This document shows positions 46,842 through 55,697 of a DNA stretch of 64,000 bases, piece after piece. The first letter of the stretch is position 1. The number at the start of each line of letters is the position of its first letter. The translations under genes and the position numbers were made by a program. This DNA is from an uncultured Cellvibrionales bacterium (GTDB lineage Bacteria; Pseudomonadota; Gammaproteobacteria; Pseudomonadales; Dasaniaceae), in the NCBI GenBank assembly GCA_913019905.1, contig CAJVZD010000006.1, forward strand, positions 120,606 to 184,605. Reading direction: 5' to 3'. The notes under the pieces are model-generated. The model did no database searches. It saw only the letters and a program-made list of their open reading frames with translations, and was not told the DNA's origin.

Positions 46842-47582
46842 ATGCTAATGAATACTCAATCTTACATTCAATTTGCTCTGCTCAAATTAGTCCTTGTTAC
46901 CTCACTGATAGCGGTTAATCCTGTTGTCATCGCCGCCGACGATGAGGCAGTCAGCAAAAGCTTGACGACGCTTTTCAGGGCGTCCCGTAAAGTGATTTCC
47001 GATAATCAGTCGATGATTAATGACGAATCTAAAGGCGAAAAGGGGCTTAGTGGAGCAGCAGTTGCCCAGATGGCGATGGATAACTATCAAAAAGCAGCGG
47101 GGTCGCCGTTGGCAAAGAATCCCGCTGAAAATGCCATGCTTGCTGCGGTAAAAGAAGTAATGGCCGATGCCCAAGATCTGATAAATCAGCAAGGGGTCGG
47201 TTTTAAAGGTTTTTTACCTGCTGTCTTCGCCCGCCAGGTTGCGACAAGATTCAGTCAGAAGATGAGTGGCAGTATGACTATCAAATTGACTGCACCGAAA
47301 AAATACGTACGTAATCGCGCCAACCGCCCGGACAAATGGGAGCATAACATTATCGAAGCGAAATTCAGTAGCGAGGGTTATGAGAGAGGAAAACCGTTTT
47401 CTGAATCAGCAGCGATCAAGGGAAAAATGGCCTTTCGGTATATCTTGCCAGAATATTATGGCGAGTCTTGTCTCGGCTGCCATGGCAAACCAGAAGGAGA
47501 GCTGGATATCACCGGCGGCAAAAAAGAGGGAGGAGTATTGGGAGAATTAGGGGGTGCTATTAGTTTGGCAATTTTTAAATAG
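46842..47582 (+). CDS. Periplasmic DUF3365 (Tll0287-like) c-type heme protein
   Basis: Signal peptide; 'FRYILPEYYGESCLGCHGKPEGELDITGGKKEGGVLGELGGAISLAI' with CxxCH heme site. Confidence 0.87.
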   Translation: MLMNTQSYIQFALLKLVLVTSLIAVNPVVIAADDEAVSKSLTTLFRASRKVISDNQSMINDESKGEKGLSGAAVAQMAMDNYQKAAGSPLAKNPAENAMLAAVKEVMADAQDLINQQGVGFKGFLPAVFARQVATRFSQKMSGSMTIKLTAPKKYVRNRANRPDKWEHNIIEAKFSSEGYERGKPFSESAAIKGKMAFRYILPEYYGESCLGCHGKPEGELDITGGKKEGGVLGELGGAISLAIFK

Positions 47583-47697
47583 CGGGTTATTGAAAATGGC
47601 TGTTATCCGATGGGCTTTCGTGGCGTTGCTGTGTCGGTTGAGAACAATCATTAATGGCACCAAGATTTCAGACTGAATTCCTACTAATGAGTAGCCT

Positions 47698-49413
47698 ATG
47701 AATATTCGTGACTTGTCCATTGGTATCCGTATTATCGCTTTTACCGGTATATTTGCGGGCGTCATTTTGTCAGCTTTGTCCTATCTGGCTTTCGCACTGT
47801 ACGGTAGTGTTAGTTTAAGCCAAACACAAAATGAACTCGTGGATTTACAGCAGCGCGCTTTGGAACAGCAAGCTGTTCTGCTCTCTGATCAAAAGGTCAT
47901 TTTTCAGCGACTGAATAACGTGACGGAATTGAGTTTTCAGTTCGCCGACGTACGTTATTGGCTCGCCGATTTATCGGTTAGTTGGCTTAATGACTCTGAG
48001 GAAAATGCGGAAAGTGCACTGAGTGCAGTGGTTGAACTACTCGTCAATGTTCAGGACCGAGAATTGGCTGAGTCGATCGATGAGCGAGTTAATAGCTATT
48101 ATGAAAAAATGATAGCTGCTGTCGATGCGTATGTAGAAGAGAATCGTGTATTGGGGAACTCTTTAATGGCCGACGCTCGCCGGCAGGCTCTTACCATTGA
48201 TCAGGACCTCGCAGAGCTTAGCGATAATTTACAGCGGCGTAGTTCTGACATTACAGCAGAGCTCGGCCAGTCGGGTACAAAAGTAAACGAGGCCGGTGGC
48301 CTGCTAAGTCATGCGGCCAAGGAAGTGGAAGAGACCAGTGATAGATTGTTGAGTGTATCTTTGATCGTAATAGTCATTCTGGCGACAGTCAGCGTAATTT
48401 ACTCCTTGGTATTGAGGAATAATATCCACGGCCCGATTACCCTACTGAATCGCGCGCTGGAGCATATTGAACGCGACTCCGACCTTGTTTATCGAGTTGA
48501 AATGGATAGTAAAGATGAAATGGGGATGATGAGCCTGGCATTAAATAAAATGATGGCGCATTTTCAGACCGTGGTCACCCTGGTTCGCGACACTGCCATG
48601 AGTCTCCGGGCGGCCACTGAGAAAAGCCGTGTCGTGGTTGAGCGAACCCAGAGTGGAGCAGATCAACAACAGGCTGCGACCGAGCAGGTGGCGGTGGCAA
48701 TGAATGAGATGGTGGCGACGGTTGAGGAGGTTGCCAGACACGCCAATGACGCCTCTCAGGCGGCCGGTGCAGCCAGCGGTTCCTCCAGAGAAGGTCAGAA
48801 TATGGTGAGTGCAACGATCGCACTGATGGTGGAACTGTCTGAAAAGACCCACCAGGCACATGACGTAGTTTCTCGCGTTTCCGCAGACAGTGCCGATATT
48901 GATAAGATTCTCGACGTGATTCGAGGCGTTTCTGAACAAACTAATCTGTTGGCATTAAATGCGGCGATAGAGGCGGCAAGAGCGGGAGAGTCCGGGCGGG
49001 GTTTTGCTGTGGTCGCCGATGAAGTGCGTACACTTGCACAACGAACGCAGCAGTCTACGCAAGAAATTCAAGAAATGATTAGTCATTTGCAGGAGGGCTC
49101 AGTCAGTGCTGAAACGGTCATGGCAGCGAGTGTCGAGTTCACCAAAAAGGCTGTTGCCCAAGCAACGGAGGCGGGTGGAGTATTAGAAGAAATAACAACG
49201 GCGGTGCAGGGGATAGTCGACATTAATGTGCAAATTGCAACGGCAACTGAGCAGCAGGCTGCGACGGCTGAGGAAATTAACCGCAACATCACGACCATCA
49301 CCGAATACGCTGCGGAGACCTCAGCGGGCGCTCGCGAAACGAATAAAGCCTGTGCTGAACAAATTGCTCTATCAGAAGAGCTAACCGAACTGGTGAATAA
49401 GTTTAACGTTTAG
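47698..49413 (+). CDS. Methyl-accepting chemotaxis protein
   Basis: Two TM segments, HAMP, signalling hairpin '[45 protein letters not shown]'. Confidence 0.97.
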
Positions 49414-51048: not shown

Positions 51049-51678
51049 TTAACGAAGGGAGTGAATATAGGCGATGACATTGTCTGCTTCGCTCGTGTTG
51101 TTAAAGTGTTTGGAAGCCGATCGCATCCATTTTGCATAGATATCGCTTTTGAACTCGCTGCCGCGTAGTCCATTAGCGTAAAGCTCCATTTGGTGCTTTT
51201 GGTCGTAAGCGGTTAAGACTTTGAGATTGGGTGTTTTTAAATGCTCTAGTCCAGCAGCATCAAAACCGTGGCAGTCGGCGCAGTTTTGGCGATAGAATTC
51301 CCTTCCTGCGGATATATTGCCAGAAATCTTTTCCTGTCTATAAATGGGGCTTAGCGTTGAGATGTACGATGCTAGTCGATCAATTGATACCTCTGAAAGT
51401 AGTGCCGCCGAAGCCGCCATTTGGGACCCATGAACGTCCGCGGGATCGTATCCTCGTGTTCCTTTTTTGAAGCTTTGCAACTGGTGTTTTAGGTAAGTTT
51501 TATTTTGTCCTGCTAAGCGTGGTGCGTTCATTTCTCTTGTACCGTCAACATTATCCCCATGGCAAACTGTGCAGCTCGGAAAATCCACCGGTAATTTGTC
51601 GGCTGCCGCCGGCACGGTCGCGATTATAGCCAGGCCTATTAATAAAATTAACTGTGAGCCAATTGATTTACATCTCAT
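51049..51678 (-). CDS. Diheme c-type cytochrome (c4/c553-like)
   Basis: Signal peptide; two CxxCH (CTVCH, CADCH). Confidence 0.9.
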   Translation of the reverse strand: MRCKSIGSQLILLIGLAIIATVPAAADKLPVDFPSCTVCHGDNVDGTREMNAPRLAGQNKTYLKHQLQSFKKGTRGYDPADVHGSQMAASAALLSEVSIDRLASYISTLSPIYRQEKISGNISAGREFYRQNCADCHGFDAAGLEHLKTPNLKVLTAYDQKHQMELYANGLRGSEFKSDIYAKWMRSASKHFNNTSEADNVIAYIHSLR

Positions 51679-51690
51679 TAAGAAAAATCC

Positions 51691-52128
51691 TCAGTTCGCC
51701 GTAGGCTGTTTTTCATAGTTGCTTATACGCTCCAGTAGAGTCTGACGAACTTCAGCGACATTGATTAAAGGAAACTTCCTCAGCTCGCTGACCTCGTTGA
51801 CCGAATACGGTATAAAGTCCTTCGGTATTTCAGTCGGGCTAAATGTCAGCAGCATCCAGTTAATTAATTGTGTTAGTTCTTTGTCTGGTAAATCTGACTG
51901 AGCAGAGCCCGGTACTTGAATCAAATAATCTCTGCCACCTTCGACGGACAAAAATTTCCCCATGTGGTTCTTGATGGCAGGAACGTTGCGCCTTGGAAAA
52001 CCGCTACCATCGGGTAAGTGGCAGCCCTGACAATTTAGCATGTAATCGACTTGAACCGCTTCTGTTGCCTGGGATAAATGGCAAAAGCATAAGGTAATAG
52101 TTAGTAGTGTTAGAGTTCTAAAAAGCAT
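51691..52128 (-). CDS. Monoheme c-type cytochrome
   Basis: Signal peptide, single CxxCH (CQGCH); ATG overlaps the upstream mauA-like stop; ORF track start 52164. Confidence 0.88.
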   Translation of the reverse strand: MLFRTLTLLTITLCFCHLSQATEAVQVDYMLNCQGCHLPDGSGFPRRNVPAIKNHMGKFLSVEGGRDYLIQVPGSAQSDLPDKELTQLINWMLLTFSPTEIPKDFIPYSVNEVSELRKFPLINVAEVRQTLLERISNYEKQPTAN

Positions 52129-52652
52129 TATTCCTTTACACCGATAACGACAGAGAGCGAACAATGGTAGGGGGCGTCGGCTTGACTACCTGTGCACCAA
52201 TTTAGATTATTGGAATTTTGCGGGCGATAGATGGGCGTGTCTCGAGCATCTCGTTGGCAGGCACAGTTCCCACAACCGCTCTTCCCGCAGCAATCGTTGT
52301 AGGAAATGACGTAGTCCTTTCCGTCACTTGGATTCTGGCATGTACCGATCCATGTGATATCTGATACCACCGTTCCGGGAGGACAACTTGTCGCCGATCC
52401 GCCACAACAGCCACATAGGAAGCCATCGATCGCGCAATGTCGCCAATAATTACAATTATTGGGGTCACCTTCTTCTACCAGCGAAGACGGTTCTGCCGCA
52501 AACGCTCCGTTTCGAAAAACGGGTAACAAAGGGTATGCGGTAGCGCCGACCAGGAACACACCTATGCCTTGCAAAAAACCTCGGCGGGACGTTTGTCGAG
52601 CTTTTTTACGAGTTGAACGTTCTGTTATTTCGTCGAGCCACTTAGTTATCAT
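52128..52652 (-). CDS. mauA: Quinohemo-free TTQ amine dehydrogenase light (beta) chain, MauA/AauA-like
   Basis: Tat signal SRRGFLQG; 'CNYWRHCAIDGFLCGCCGGSATSCPPGTVVSDITWIGTCQNPSDGKDYVISYNDCCGKSGCGNCAC' and 'NWCTGSQ': Cys-rich fold with both candidate TTQ tryptophans; ORF track start 52880. Confidence 0.94.
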   Translation of the reverse strand: MITKWLDEITERSTRKKARQTSRRGFLQGIGVFLVGATAYPLLPVFRNGAFAAEPSSLVEEGDPNNCNYWRHCAIDGFLCGCCGGSATSCPPGTVVSDITWIGTCQNPSDGKDYVISYNDCCGKSGCGNCACQRDARDTPIYRPQNSNNLNWCTGSQADAPYHCSLSVVIGVKE

Positions 52653-52653
52653 T

Positions 52654-53253
52654 TTAATTAACTCCGGATTGGGCGGCGTTATATTCTTGAACCGTTGCGA
52701 CTCCAAGTTTTTGAACTTCAAATAAACTTTCGAGATGCTCTCGATTGTTAACAAGGCCGTGTGTGATGATTTCCCCGTCGACGCTAATGAGTACTCCATA
52801 AGGTAGTTTACTAATTCGATACGCAATGCCGACGTCGGCAGACAATATATAGGGGAAATGTTCGAGCTGGTGTTCTGCAATGAAACGTTGGTGCTCAGTT
52901 ATATCCCCGTCACTAGCAAAAATAATCTGCAACGTATCCCGCTCTTGCAATTGAATACTTTTCAATATTGGGAGTAGCGTTTTACAAACCGGGCATGTTG
53001 AGGAAAGAAAAAATAGAAGCGTGGTTCTATTGGAATTTCCGCCCAGAGTAATCGGTCCGCCATTTAGGCTATTAACATTAAATGTCGGTGCCGGATCACC
53101 GCTATTCACTGCCTGTCCTAAGGAGAGAGCACCGACAGGTTTGATGCGCTCGTGCAGTACGCCAATCTGTCTGGCAAGGGCATAAAGTGAAATACCCATG
53201 ACAATGATAATCACCCAGCTGACGATATTGGAAATAACAAGGGCGTCAATCAT
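52654..53253 (-). CDS. mauD: MauD-like thioredoxin-fold protein for amine dehydrogenase maturation
   Basis: N-terminal TM; CPVC motif in 'FLSSTCPVCKTLLP'; between mauE and mauA. Confidence 0.9.
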   Translation of the reverse strand: MIDALVISNIVSWVIIIVMGISLYALARQIGVLHERIKPVGALSLGQAVNSGDPAPTFNVNSLNGGPITLGGNSNRTTLLFFLSSTCPVCKTLLPILKSIQLQERDTLQIIFASDGDITEHQRFIAEHQLEHFPYILSADVGIAYRISKLPYGVLISVDGEIITHGLVNNREHLESLFEVQKLGVATVQEYNAAQSGVN

Positions 53254-53786
53254 AAGGAAAGCTCTTTTGATGTTAGTTGTTGGTCTATCAGAGTATTAGC
53301 AGTGAGGTACAGGAGGCTGAATTGCACGGCGCCGAATACAATGATGCCGTAATCATAGTAGCTGGTTTCGCGAAGCCCAACAGGCAAAAGTAAGCTGGTG
53401 GCCGCGACAGAAAGAAAAATGTTTCGCCAGACAAGTCCACTAGAGATCGTTTGTCGAAGTGCTCCGAAAGAGCAACCACAATCAATGTTGACATTACCCC
53501 GCTTAATATTCAAAGCCATCGCTATTGCGTATGTTAATAGAAGGCCGACCGCCAAAACGCAGCATATTGTTTGGGTTTGCGGAATTAGCAGCCCAGCGCC
53601 TACCGTTAGCTCGACTGCCGGAATTACACGCGCTGCTAACGCTATCAGCTTCTCGTTAACGATTTGGTAGCTTTGCAAAATACCTCTGAATTCATGCATG
53701 TTTTGGAGTTTTTGCCACGTGGATGTCAAAAACAATAGGCTTAATGCGAAACTGATTATGTAATGAAATACGGGATCATTTGTCAT
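53250..53786 (-). CDS. mauE: MauE-like membrane protein
   Basis: 4-5 TM segments; 'NVNIDCGCSFGAL' motif; between mauB and mauD. Confidence 0.88.
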   Translation of the reverse strand: MTNDPVFHYIISFALSLLFLTSTWQKLQNMHEFRGILQSYQIVNEKLIALAARVIPAVELTVGAGLLIPQTQTICCVLAVGLLLTYAIAMALNIKRGNVNIDCGCSFGALRQTISSGLVWRNIFLSVAATSLLLPVGLRETSYYDYGIIVFGAVQFSLLYLTANTLIDQQLTSKELSL

Positions 53787-53792
53787 GATTTG

Positions 53793-55004
53793 TTACCACG
53801 GCGCAATATCCAAAACAAACCCTTCCGGCAGAAAGGCAGTTCTATTCAAATGTTCACCGCTGTTAGCATCGTAAGTATTGGCGACTTGTTTCACCAGTTT
53901 TGAAATAGGCTCTTGCCCTTCGAAGATGTACATTAAAAACGTCATCCATGACGGCAGGGGTATATGAAATGCGAGGCTATACAGTCTCGGGTTGTTACCC
54001 TGACTTACATTAATCGACAAAGACAAATCTTTCAGTGGCAGTTCATTGATTTTCTTTTGTGTATTCACATCATAAACCCAGACATCGGTGCCAGGTTCTT
54101 CAAACGTGTGTGTTTCTCCAGTATGCATGAGCACATATAAATGCCCGTTCGCTTCGTGAGTGGCGGTGTGATGGAACCCACTAATAGTCCAATTGTCTTC
54201 CTGTTCTTTTTCATTTGCTAGCGGCCATGTTTCTACCAGTTTTATACTGTCTGGCTGCATTTCAATCGCGTAAACATTATTTTGGCGTGAAACAAAATAC
54301 CAGGTGTCTTCAATTTTTGACGCCGATATGGTCAAAAAATCATTAACGGGATCAAATAGTGGGGCAGAACGTTCCAAAAGAGATACCTGGCCGGCGTCGT
54401 CTAAGCGGATATGTAAAAATCCGCCGTTAGCACAAATGGAATAAAAATCGCGATTTCCGCCGGGGTATATTACCGAGCACCCGGGTGTGTCGATTTCTAC
54501 TACATATTCTGATGTATCGAGGTTAATAACTGAAATCGACTGAGCGGGCGTATAGTTGACCACCAACAAAAATTTTTCGTCCTCCGTGAGTGTTACAAGC
54601 CCACTACTTTTCACAGAGTTCATGCGTTTAGGGGGAATCGTTATTTCCCGTATTGGGCTTAGCGTGTGAGGGTCGTAAATAACAACGACGTCGCTGCGGG
54701 TGCCGCGAGTTCCACGGCTGAAATAGGTTTCGACCGTAATTAATTCCCCGCGCTTCTTCGCAGGAACAAGGGAGGTAAACCACAATCCAGTTGAGAGCTG
54801 GCCTAAAGTCTTACCTTGATCATCAAATAGAAAGGCTCTGCCATCCGTTTCATTAGGCATTCGTGATCCAGCCACCCAAAACCAATCTTTGCCGCTGTGG
54901 TCCGGTAGTGTTGCGACCGAGGCGGTTTCAGGAATAAATTCTGCTGTTGCCAAAAAGGGGATGCAGCTTACGAGAAAGACAAAAATCTGCTTTTTCAGAA
55001 TCAT
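53793..55004 (-). CDS. mauB: Amine dehydrogenase heavy (alpha) chain, MauB/AauB-like
   Basis: Signal peptide; beta-propeller 'HLYVLMHTGETHTFEEPGTDVWVYDVNTQKKINELPL'; first gene of mauBEDA order. Confidence 0.92.
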   Translation of the reverse strand: MILKKQIFVFLVSCIPFLATAEFIPETASVATLPDHSGKDWFWVAGSRMPNETDGRAFLFDDQGKTLGQLSTGLWFTSLVPAKKRGELITVETYFSRGTRGTRSDVVVIYDPHTLSPIREITIPPKRMNSVKSSGLVTLTEDEKFLLVVNYTPAQSISVINLDTSEYVVEIDTPGCSVIYPGGNRDFYSICANGGFLHIRLDDAGQVSLLERSAPLFDPVNDFLTISASKIEDTWYFVSRQNNVYAIEMQPDSIKLVETWPLANEKEQEDNWTISGFHHTATHEANGHLYVLMHTGETHTFEEPGTDVWVYDVNTQKKINELPLKDLSLSINVSQGNNPRLYSLAFHIPLPSWMTFLMYIFEGQEPISKLVKQVANTYDANSGEHLNRTAFLPEGFVLDIAPW

Positions 55005-55118
55005 CAGCGTTTTCTTTTTTAATGTTCAGCGAATAAGCACAAAGATACCGGTAAACTAGTAATCTATGAAAGTAGAGCCTATTATCAATACAATTGGACA
55101 TATGTCAAGATTATAATT

Positions 55119-55697
55119 ATGACGACTAAATCGCCTCCTAACGAAAAATTGAAAAGCCGTGAAAAACTGTTACGCGGCGCTTTGCTAGTGATTGCAACCG
55201 AAGGTGTTGATGCCATTACGCATCGCCGGGTCGGAAAGGCGGCAGGGGTCTCGCACGGAGTGGCGAGTTATCATTTCAAAACCCGCGATGATCTCGTCAA
55301 TGAAACGTTTTTGTTTCATCTAAATGAACTCGAGCAATTAGGTAATGAGATAGTACAGAATAGGGATGCGGCGAGTTTTGCTGGCGTTATTGATAATGTT
55401 GTTGAATTTGTCAAACGTGACCAGGCATCGCCGTACTGGGTGCGTGCCGATTACGAACTGATTCTGTACGCGTCTAGAAACCCGCCACTCGCAGAAACAT
55501 TTAGGGAGTGGGAAGAGGCTGTTACGTTTACCCTGGCAGATAAACTTCGAGCCATTGACGTGCACGACCCGATCCGTGCCGCCCGAATCGTGATTAACAT
55601 GATTCGAGCCTTTGAGCTGGAGTGTATGACAAACCCAGCATTAGGTTTGGAGGAATTTAGGAAACGCTTGGAACTGATCGGCTCGGGGTTTATTTAA
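55119..55697 (+). CDS. TetR family regulator, divergent from the amine dehydrogenase cluster
   Basis: 'RGALLVIATEGVDAITHRRVGKAAGVSHGVASYHFKTRDDLVNETF'. Confidence 0.93.
   Translation: MTTKSPPNEKLKSREKLLRGALLVIATEGVDAITHRRVGKAAGVSHGVASYHFKTRDDLVNETFLFHLNELEQLGNEIVQNRDAASFAGVIDNVVEFVKRDQASPYWVRADYELILYASRNPPLAETFREWEEAVTFTLADKLRAIDVHDPIRAARIVINMIRAFELECMTNPALGLEEFRKRLELIGSGFI

Follow-up and report, generated by a model that had tools for sequence, protein, structure and literature searches.

The aau cluster of Alcaligenes faecalis, as described by Chistoserdov in 2001, reportedly has the gene order BEDA, lacks mauF, mauG, mauL, mauM and mauN, and carries a small monoheme cytochrome gene (orf-2) downstream. 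To our knowledge, the way in which aromatic amine dehydrogenase (AADH) acquires its TTQ without MauG is an open question, and a full-text literature search, whose coverage lay outside the main reviews, retrieved no paper on MauG-free TTQ formation in AADH. In methylamine dehydrogenase (MADH), TTQ is finished by MauG from a mono-hydroxylated precursor (PMC7876137). QhpG, which acts in CTQ biogenesis (PMC7876137), provides another MauG-independent way to a tryptophylquinone; it is a cytoplasmic flavoprotein, whereas the protein considered here is a cytochrome.

Gene content and affiliation of the cluster

The window analyzed here is a 64,000-nt stretch of contig CAJVZD010000006.1 (GCA_913019905.1) from an uncultured Cellvibrionales bacterium of the Dasaniaceae, whose 6.4-Mb genome assembly (177 contigs) is 99.4% complete with 5.1% contamination. 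ORF and domain searches identified six genes, all on the minus strand, in the order B-E-D-A followed by a monoheme and a diheme cytochrome, together with a divergent regulator:

53793-55004, minus strand: heavy (large) chain of a TTQ amine dehydrogenase, AADH type, aauB (PF06433, 1.8e-35)
53250-53786, minus strand: MauE/AauE membrane redox-associated protein (PF07291, 2.4e-26)
52654-53253, minus strand: MauD/AauD thioredoxin-like accessory protein with CPVC (TIGR02661, 192.2 bits, above the cut-off of 188.6 bits)
52128-52652, minus strand: light chain, aauA, 174 aa (PF02975, 3.7e-52, and PDB matches)
51691-52128, minus strand: monoheme cytochrome c, 145 aa (C33-Q-G-C-H37, Thermus c552 fold)
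51049-51678, minus strand: diheme c4-like cytochrome c (PF00034, two CXXCH)
55119-55697, plus strand: divergent TetR-family regulator (PF00440/PF17940)

A first-pass annotation of the letters had proposed a TTQ amine dehydrogenase cluster in BEDA order with two c-type cytochromes and a divergent TetR gene, and domain matches recovered every one of these genes. Its span of 51049-55106 holds at the left end and has to be shortened at the right: with the heavy-chain start at 55004, the cluster proper covers 51049-55004. The light chain starts at the ATG at 52652, the longer ORF being an artefact of an upstream TTG, and the monoheme gene starts at the ATG at 52128, overlapping the light-chain stop (TAATG). 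Neighboring genes of the cluster overlap or lie no more than about 12 bases apart and are therefore likely to form a single operon.

The locus shares with the reported Alcaligenes faecalis aau cluster the BEDA order, the lack of mauF/G/L/M/N and the small monoheme gene downstream; unlike that cluster, it has a c4-like diheme gene next and a divergent TetR gene. With the mau clusters of Paracoccus and Methylobacterium it has in common the B-E-D-A core and a TTQ-type light chain, whereas those loci also contain mauF, amicyanin, mauJ, mauG and ferredoxin-type genes and contain no monoheme of the Met-less family described below. Neither the four genes that would mark a mau cluster (mauG, mauF, mauJ and amicyanin) nor mauM or mauN are found in the window cluster, which thus has the composition of an aau cluster.

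The resemblance to AADH noted in the first pass is borne out by the heavy-chain scores and by the light-chain tree. Against the PDB, the heavy chain scores 172 bits with AADH and 90 bits with MADH. The light chain alone is ambiguous, with 155 bits for AADH and 157 bits for full-length MADH 3c75, a match that takes in the leader region; this leader carries a twin-arginine SRRGFL motif for Tat export. A phylogeny was also built from 113 light chains; its alignment has few columns, so that the inner forks are weak. The five sequences whose loci carry mau accessory genes cluster together in it, set off by a branch of 1.69 changes per site (support 100/100). The window light chain lies outside this MADH clade, beside that of Aestuariicella albida, and the group around these two consists of Pseudomonas and Oxalobacteraceae sequences. 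The cluster belongs to the AADH/aau branch and not to MADH, and both its layout and its missing MauG are ordinary for that branch, in which the mauG-free BEDA form is common; it is a known cluster type. Both tryptophans singled out in the first pass as TTQ candidates are retained (W101 and W152) and, like D76 and D120, are invariant in a 13-member light-chain alignment. A TTQ cofactor is predicted for the enzyme, in keeping with these conserved Trp and Asp residues, and aromatic amines are its putative substrates.

Among the other loci, the Thermomicrobium roseum plasmid NC_011961 (L185) carries MauE- and MauD-like genes together with four ORFs that resemble light chains, and no heavy-chain match was found near these ORFs.

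A monoheme cytochrome accompanies AADH

In a first set of loci, the monoheme gene lies directly 3' of 87 of 102 light-chain genes: alone in 56, with a diheme gene in 19, and with a second monoheme between in 12. In one metagenome assembly (L038:10666-11556) the monoheme and diheme are fused in frame. No monoheme adjoins 14 of the 102 light-chain genes, three of which are MADH-type. The remaining AADH-type genes either belong to a second B-A copy, the genome having a full set elsewhere, or sit at a contig end, and in L090 the monoheme is encoded on another contig of the same genome; we therefore rejected these genes as exceptions.

The association is also strict in wider surveys. Among 369 genomes of the class, 10 encode an AADH-type light chain, and these 10 and no others give monoheme scores of 122 bits or more; the next best match reaches 53 bits, and the three MADH-type genomes of this survey give no monoheme match even with every candidate scored. 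A partly overlapping survey of 399 genomes of the phylum (E 1e-12) returned the monoheme in exactly 11 genomes, those with a full-length light chain. Fifteen of 72,556 plasmids encode the monoheme and all 15 encode a light chain; it was not found in the MADH-type plasmid records. About seven genomes have several B-A pairs for one E-D-monoheme set, an arrangement that fits a helper acting in trans and also a diffusible acceptor. Such extra heavy- and light-chain pairs occur in L055, L068, L073, L088, L092, L058 and L021/L029, and most of their light chains fall in one clade.

The monoheme lacks the axial-Met loop

A profile built from 85 monoheme homologues matches Thermus c552 on either side of a gap at the position of Met69. 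The AlphaFold model of the monoheme (pLDDT 91.9) has c552 (1c52) as its best PDB fold, with a TM score of 0.67 and an E value of only 2e-3. The spacing between a conserved Arg and a conserved Asn is 23 residues in 85/85 homologues vs 40-42 in the second monoheme, a paralogue that retains the Met in 12/12; the deleted axial-Met loop corresponds to about 18 residues, with Val72-Pro73-Gly74 in the shortened turn. No conserved Met or second His is present in the alignment of the 85 homologues, and the cytochromes of two MADH loci, compared by eye, have Met at the corresponding motif. The monoheme thus shares the fold, the CXXCH and the full-length profile match of Thermus thermophilus c552 and differs in having lost the loop that carries axial Met69 in 1c52. 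It is a derived relative of the Thermus c552-type class I cytochromes rather than a typical member. Its single CXXCH and the absence of a PF03150 match place it outside the MauG/bCCP family.

In the C14A/M69A double mutant of Thermus c552 the heme is five-coordinate (PMC10635480), and by analogy the monoheme probably also holds a five-coordinate heme. A sixth ligand could come from another residue or from a partner protein, the AlphaFold model containing no heme.

The diheme cytochrome and the proposed electron route

The diheme is c4-like, with two CXXCH domains and a Met at each; both motifs and both Met residues are conserved in 20/20 homologues, and from their position the latter are predicted to be the axial ligands. 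No PF00127 blue copper protein was found in the window genome, although PF00127 may miss some cupredoxins. Across genomes, the diheme is commoner where PF00127 proteins are missing (Fisher p=0.006, uncorrected for shared ancestry). The heavy-chain matches include PDB AADH entries 2h47 and 2iaa, which are AADH-azurin complexes. The variable Met-ligated cytochromes, or azurin, are best read as the putative acceptors of AADH.

Regulator and neighborhood

An imperfect palindrome (55104-55123) lies at the start of the TetR gene, and TetR is a possible regulator of the operon. The catabolic context suggested earlier from TetR, a P450 and a BVMO found no support: the flanks of relatives contain no equivalent of the window TetR, they gave a single weak match for the BVMO and no more than one close match for the P450, and we rejected all three as functional parts of the system. 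Annotation of the flanks for clues to the substrate gave a mixed picture (TonB receptors, aldehyde dehydrogenase and others). Elsewhere in the window, at 46842-49413, a gene for a Tll0287-like protein with CXXCH is followed by a chemoreceptor-like gene, a possible heme-based sensing pair.

Proposed maturation route and its alternatives

The first-pass suggestion that one or both cytochromes act as acceptor or in TTQ maturation gains support and can be divided, with the monoheme as the maturation candidate and the diheme as acceptor-like. We give about even chances to a scheme in which the monoheme is a five-coordinate helper that replaces MauG in TTQ maturation and the diheme is the electron acceptor. 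In this scheme the heavy and light chains would form a periplasmic aromatic-type TTQ amine dehydrogenase, MauE and MauD would serve light-chain export and disulfide formation, and TTQ would form without MauG. The open heme of the monoheme would react with O2 or H2O2 and so cause the two light-chain tryptophans to be oxidized and cross-linked, with electrons perhaps passing through partner hemes. The diheme, with both hemes Met-ligated, would take up electrons once the enzyme is reduced and deliver them to the respiratory chain, no azurin or amicyanin being recognized in this organism. The monoheme would have its role in TTQ maturation and its open heme in common with MauG; MauG, however, is a diheme protein of about 40 kDa from the bCCP family, and a single heme may not achieve its two-heme chemistry. 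The broader proposal, that loss of the axial-ligand loop has made the monoheme catalytic and that it synthesizes TTQ in every AADH-type enzyme, as a one-heme counterpart of MauG built on another fold, we hold more tentatively, at somewhat short of even chances.

The strongest rival is a specialized electron acceptor: the monoheme would be the obligatory first acceptor from AADH, handing on to the diheme, and TTQ would arise by autocatalysis or through MauE/MauD and periplasmic oxidants. Adjacency, co-occurrence and the monoheme-diheme fusion in L038 fit such a redox chain equally well, and co-occurrence together with Met loss is also compatible with a dedicated AADH redox partner that has an unusual heme. 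We nevertheless consider this rather unlikely: the axial-Met loop is missing in 85/85 homologues, in contrast to the variable second cytochromes beside them, which retain their Met, and the monoheme is also kept in genomes with azurin-like proteins, azurin being the partner in the PDB complexes noted above. The predicted open heme site would likewise permit a protective role (peroxidase, O2 or NO scavenger) or heme-based regulation of AADH in place of maturation; the strict co-occurrence with AADH light chains suggests an enzyme-specific function, and we judge a protective or regulatory role improbable.

It is also conceivable, if highly improbable, that TTQ in the window organism is made by an unlinked MauG-family diheme, as by MauG in MADH. 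The earlier statement that mauG is lacking holds for the 64-kb window, but the genome encodes one full CCP_MauG-family (PF03150) protein on a different contig (L001:1147-2469), besides a second, weak partial match. The L001 protein has Tyr at the position of MauG Tyr294, a heme ligand, and with this equivalent present we rejected its assignment as merely a canonical peroxidase; W199 of MauG was rejected as a discriminating test, three other mau-cluster MauG proteins also lacking it. Yet its scores, 168 bits with cytochrome c peroxidases and 149 with the di-heme enzyme 6e1c, place L001 closer to these proteins than to MauG (84), and its gene adjoins a diheme cytochrome c gene of its own. PF03150 was, moreover, not found in Aestuariicella, Pseudomonas BN411, GD03858, P. 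umsongensis, P. entomophila, P. marincola, G006, G438, G564 or G632, all of which carry the cluster; several are isolates, and G438 and G564 are single-contig genomes rated 100% complete. A MauG-family gene is therefore not needed for carrying the cluster. The first-pass annotation had counted a mauG homologue elsewhere in the genome that is required for activity as speaking against its reading: half of this is borne out, because L001 is there, but the cluster-bearing relatives named above have no MauG-family gene. In another locus, a MauG-like diheme gene (L036:13242-14642) lies about 2 kb downstream of the AADH cluster, with other genes between.

Significance

What is new here is the monoheme, a nearly universal companion of AADH that has lost the axial-Met loop and is a good candidate for the missing builder of TTQ. 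Attention is thereby drawn to a single small protein, chosen on structural grounds, and one deletion would put the question to the test. If the proposal is true, TTQ maturation would have two unrelated solutions, and AADH would show a second and simpler way in which heme can give rise to a protein-derived quinone, which would be useful for recombinant AADH production.
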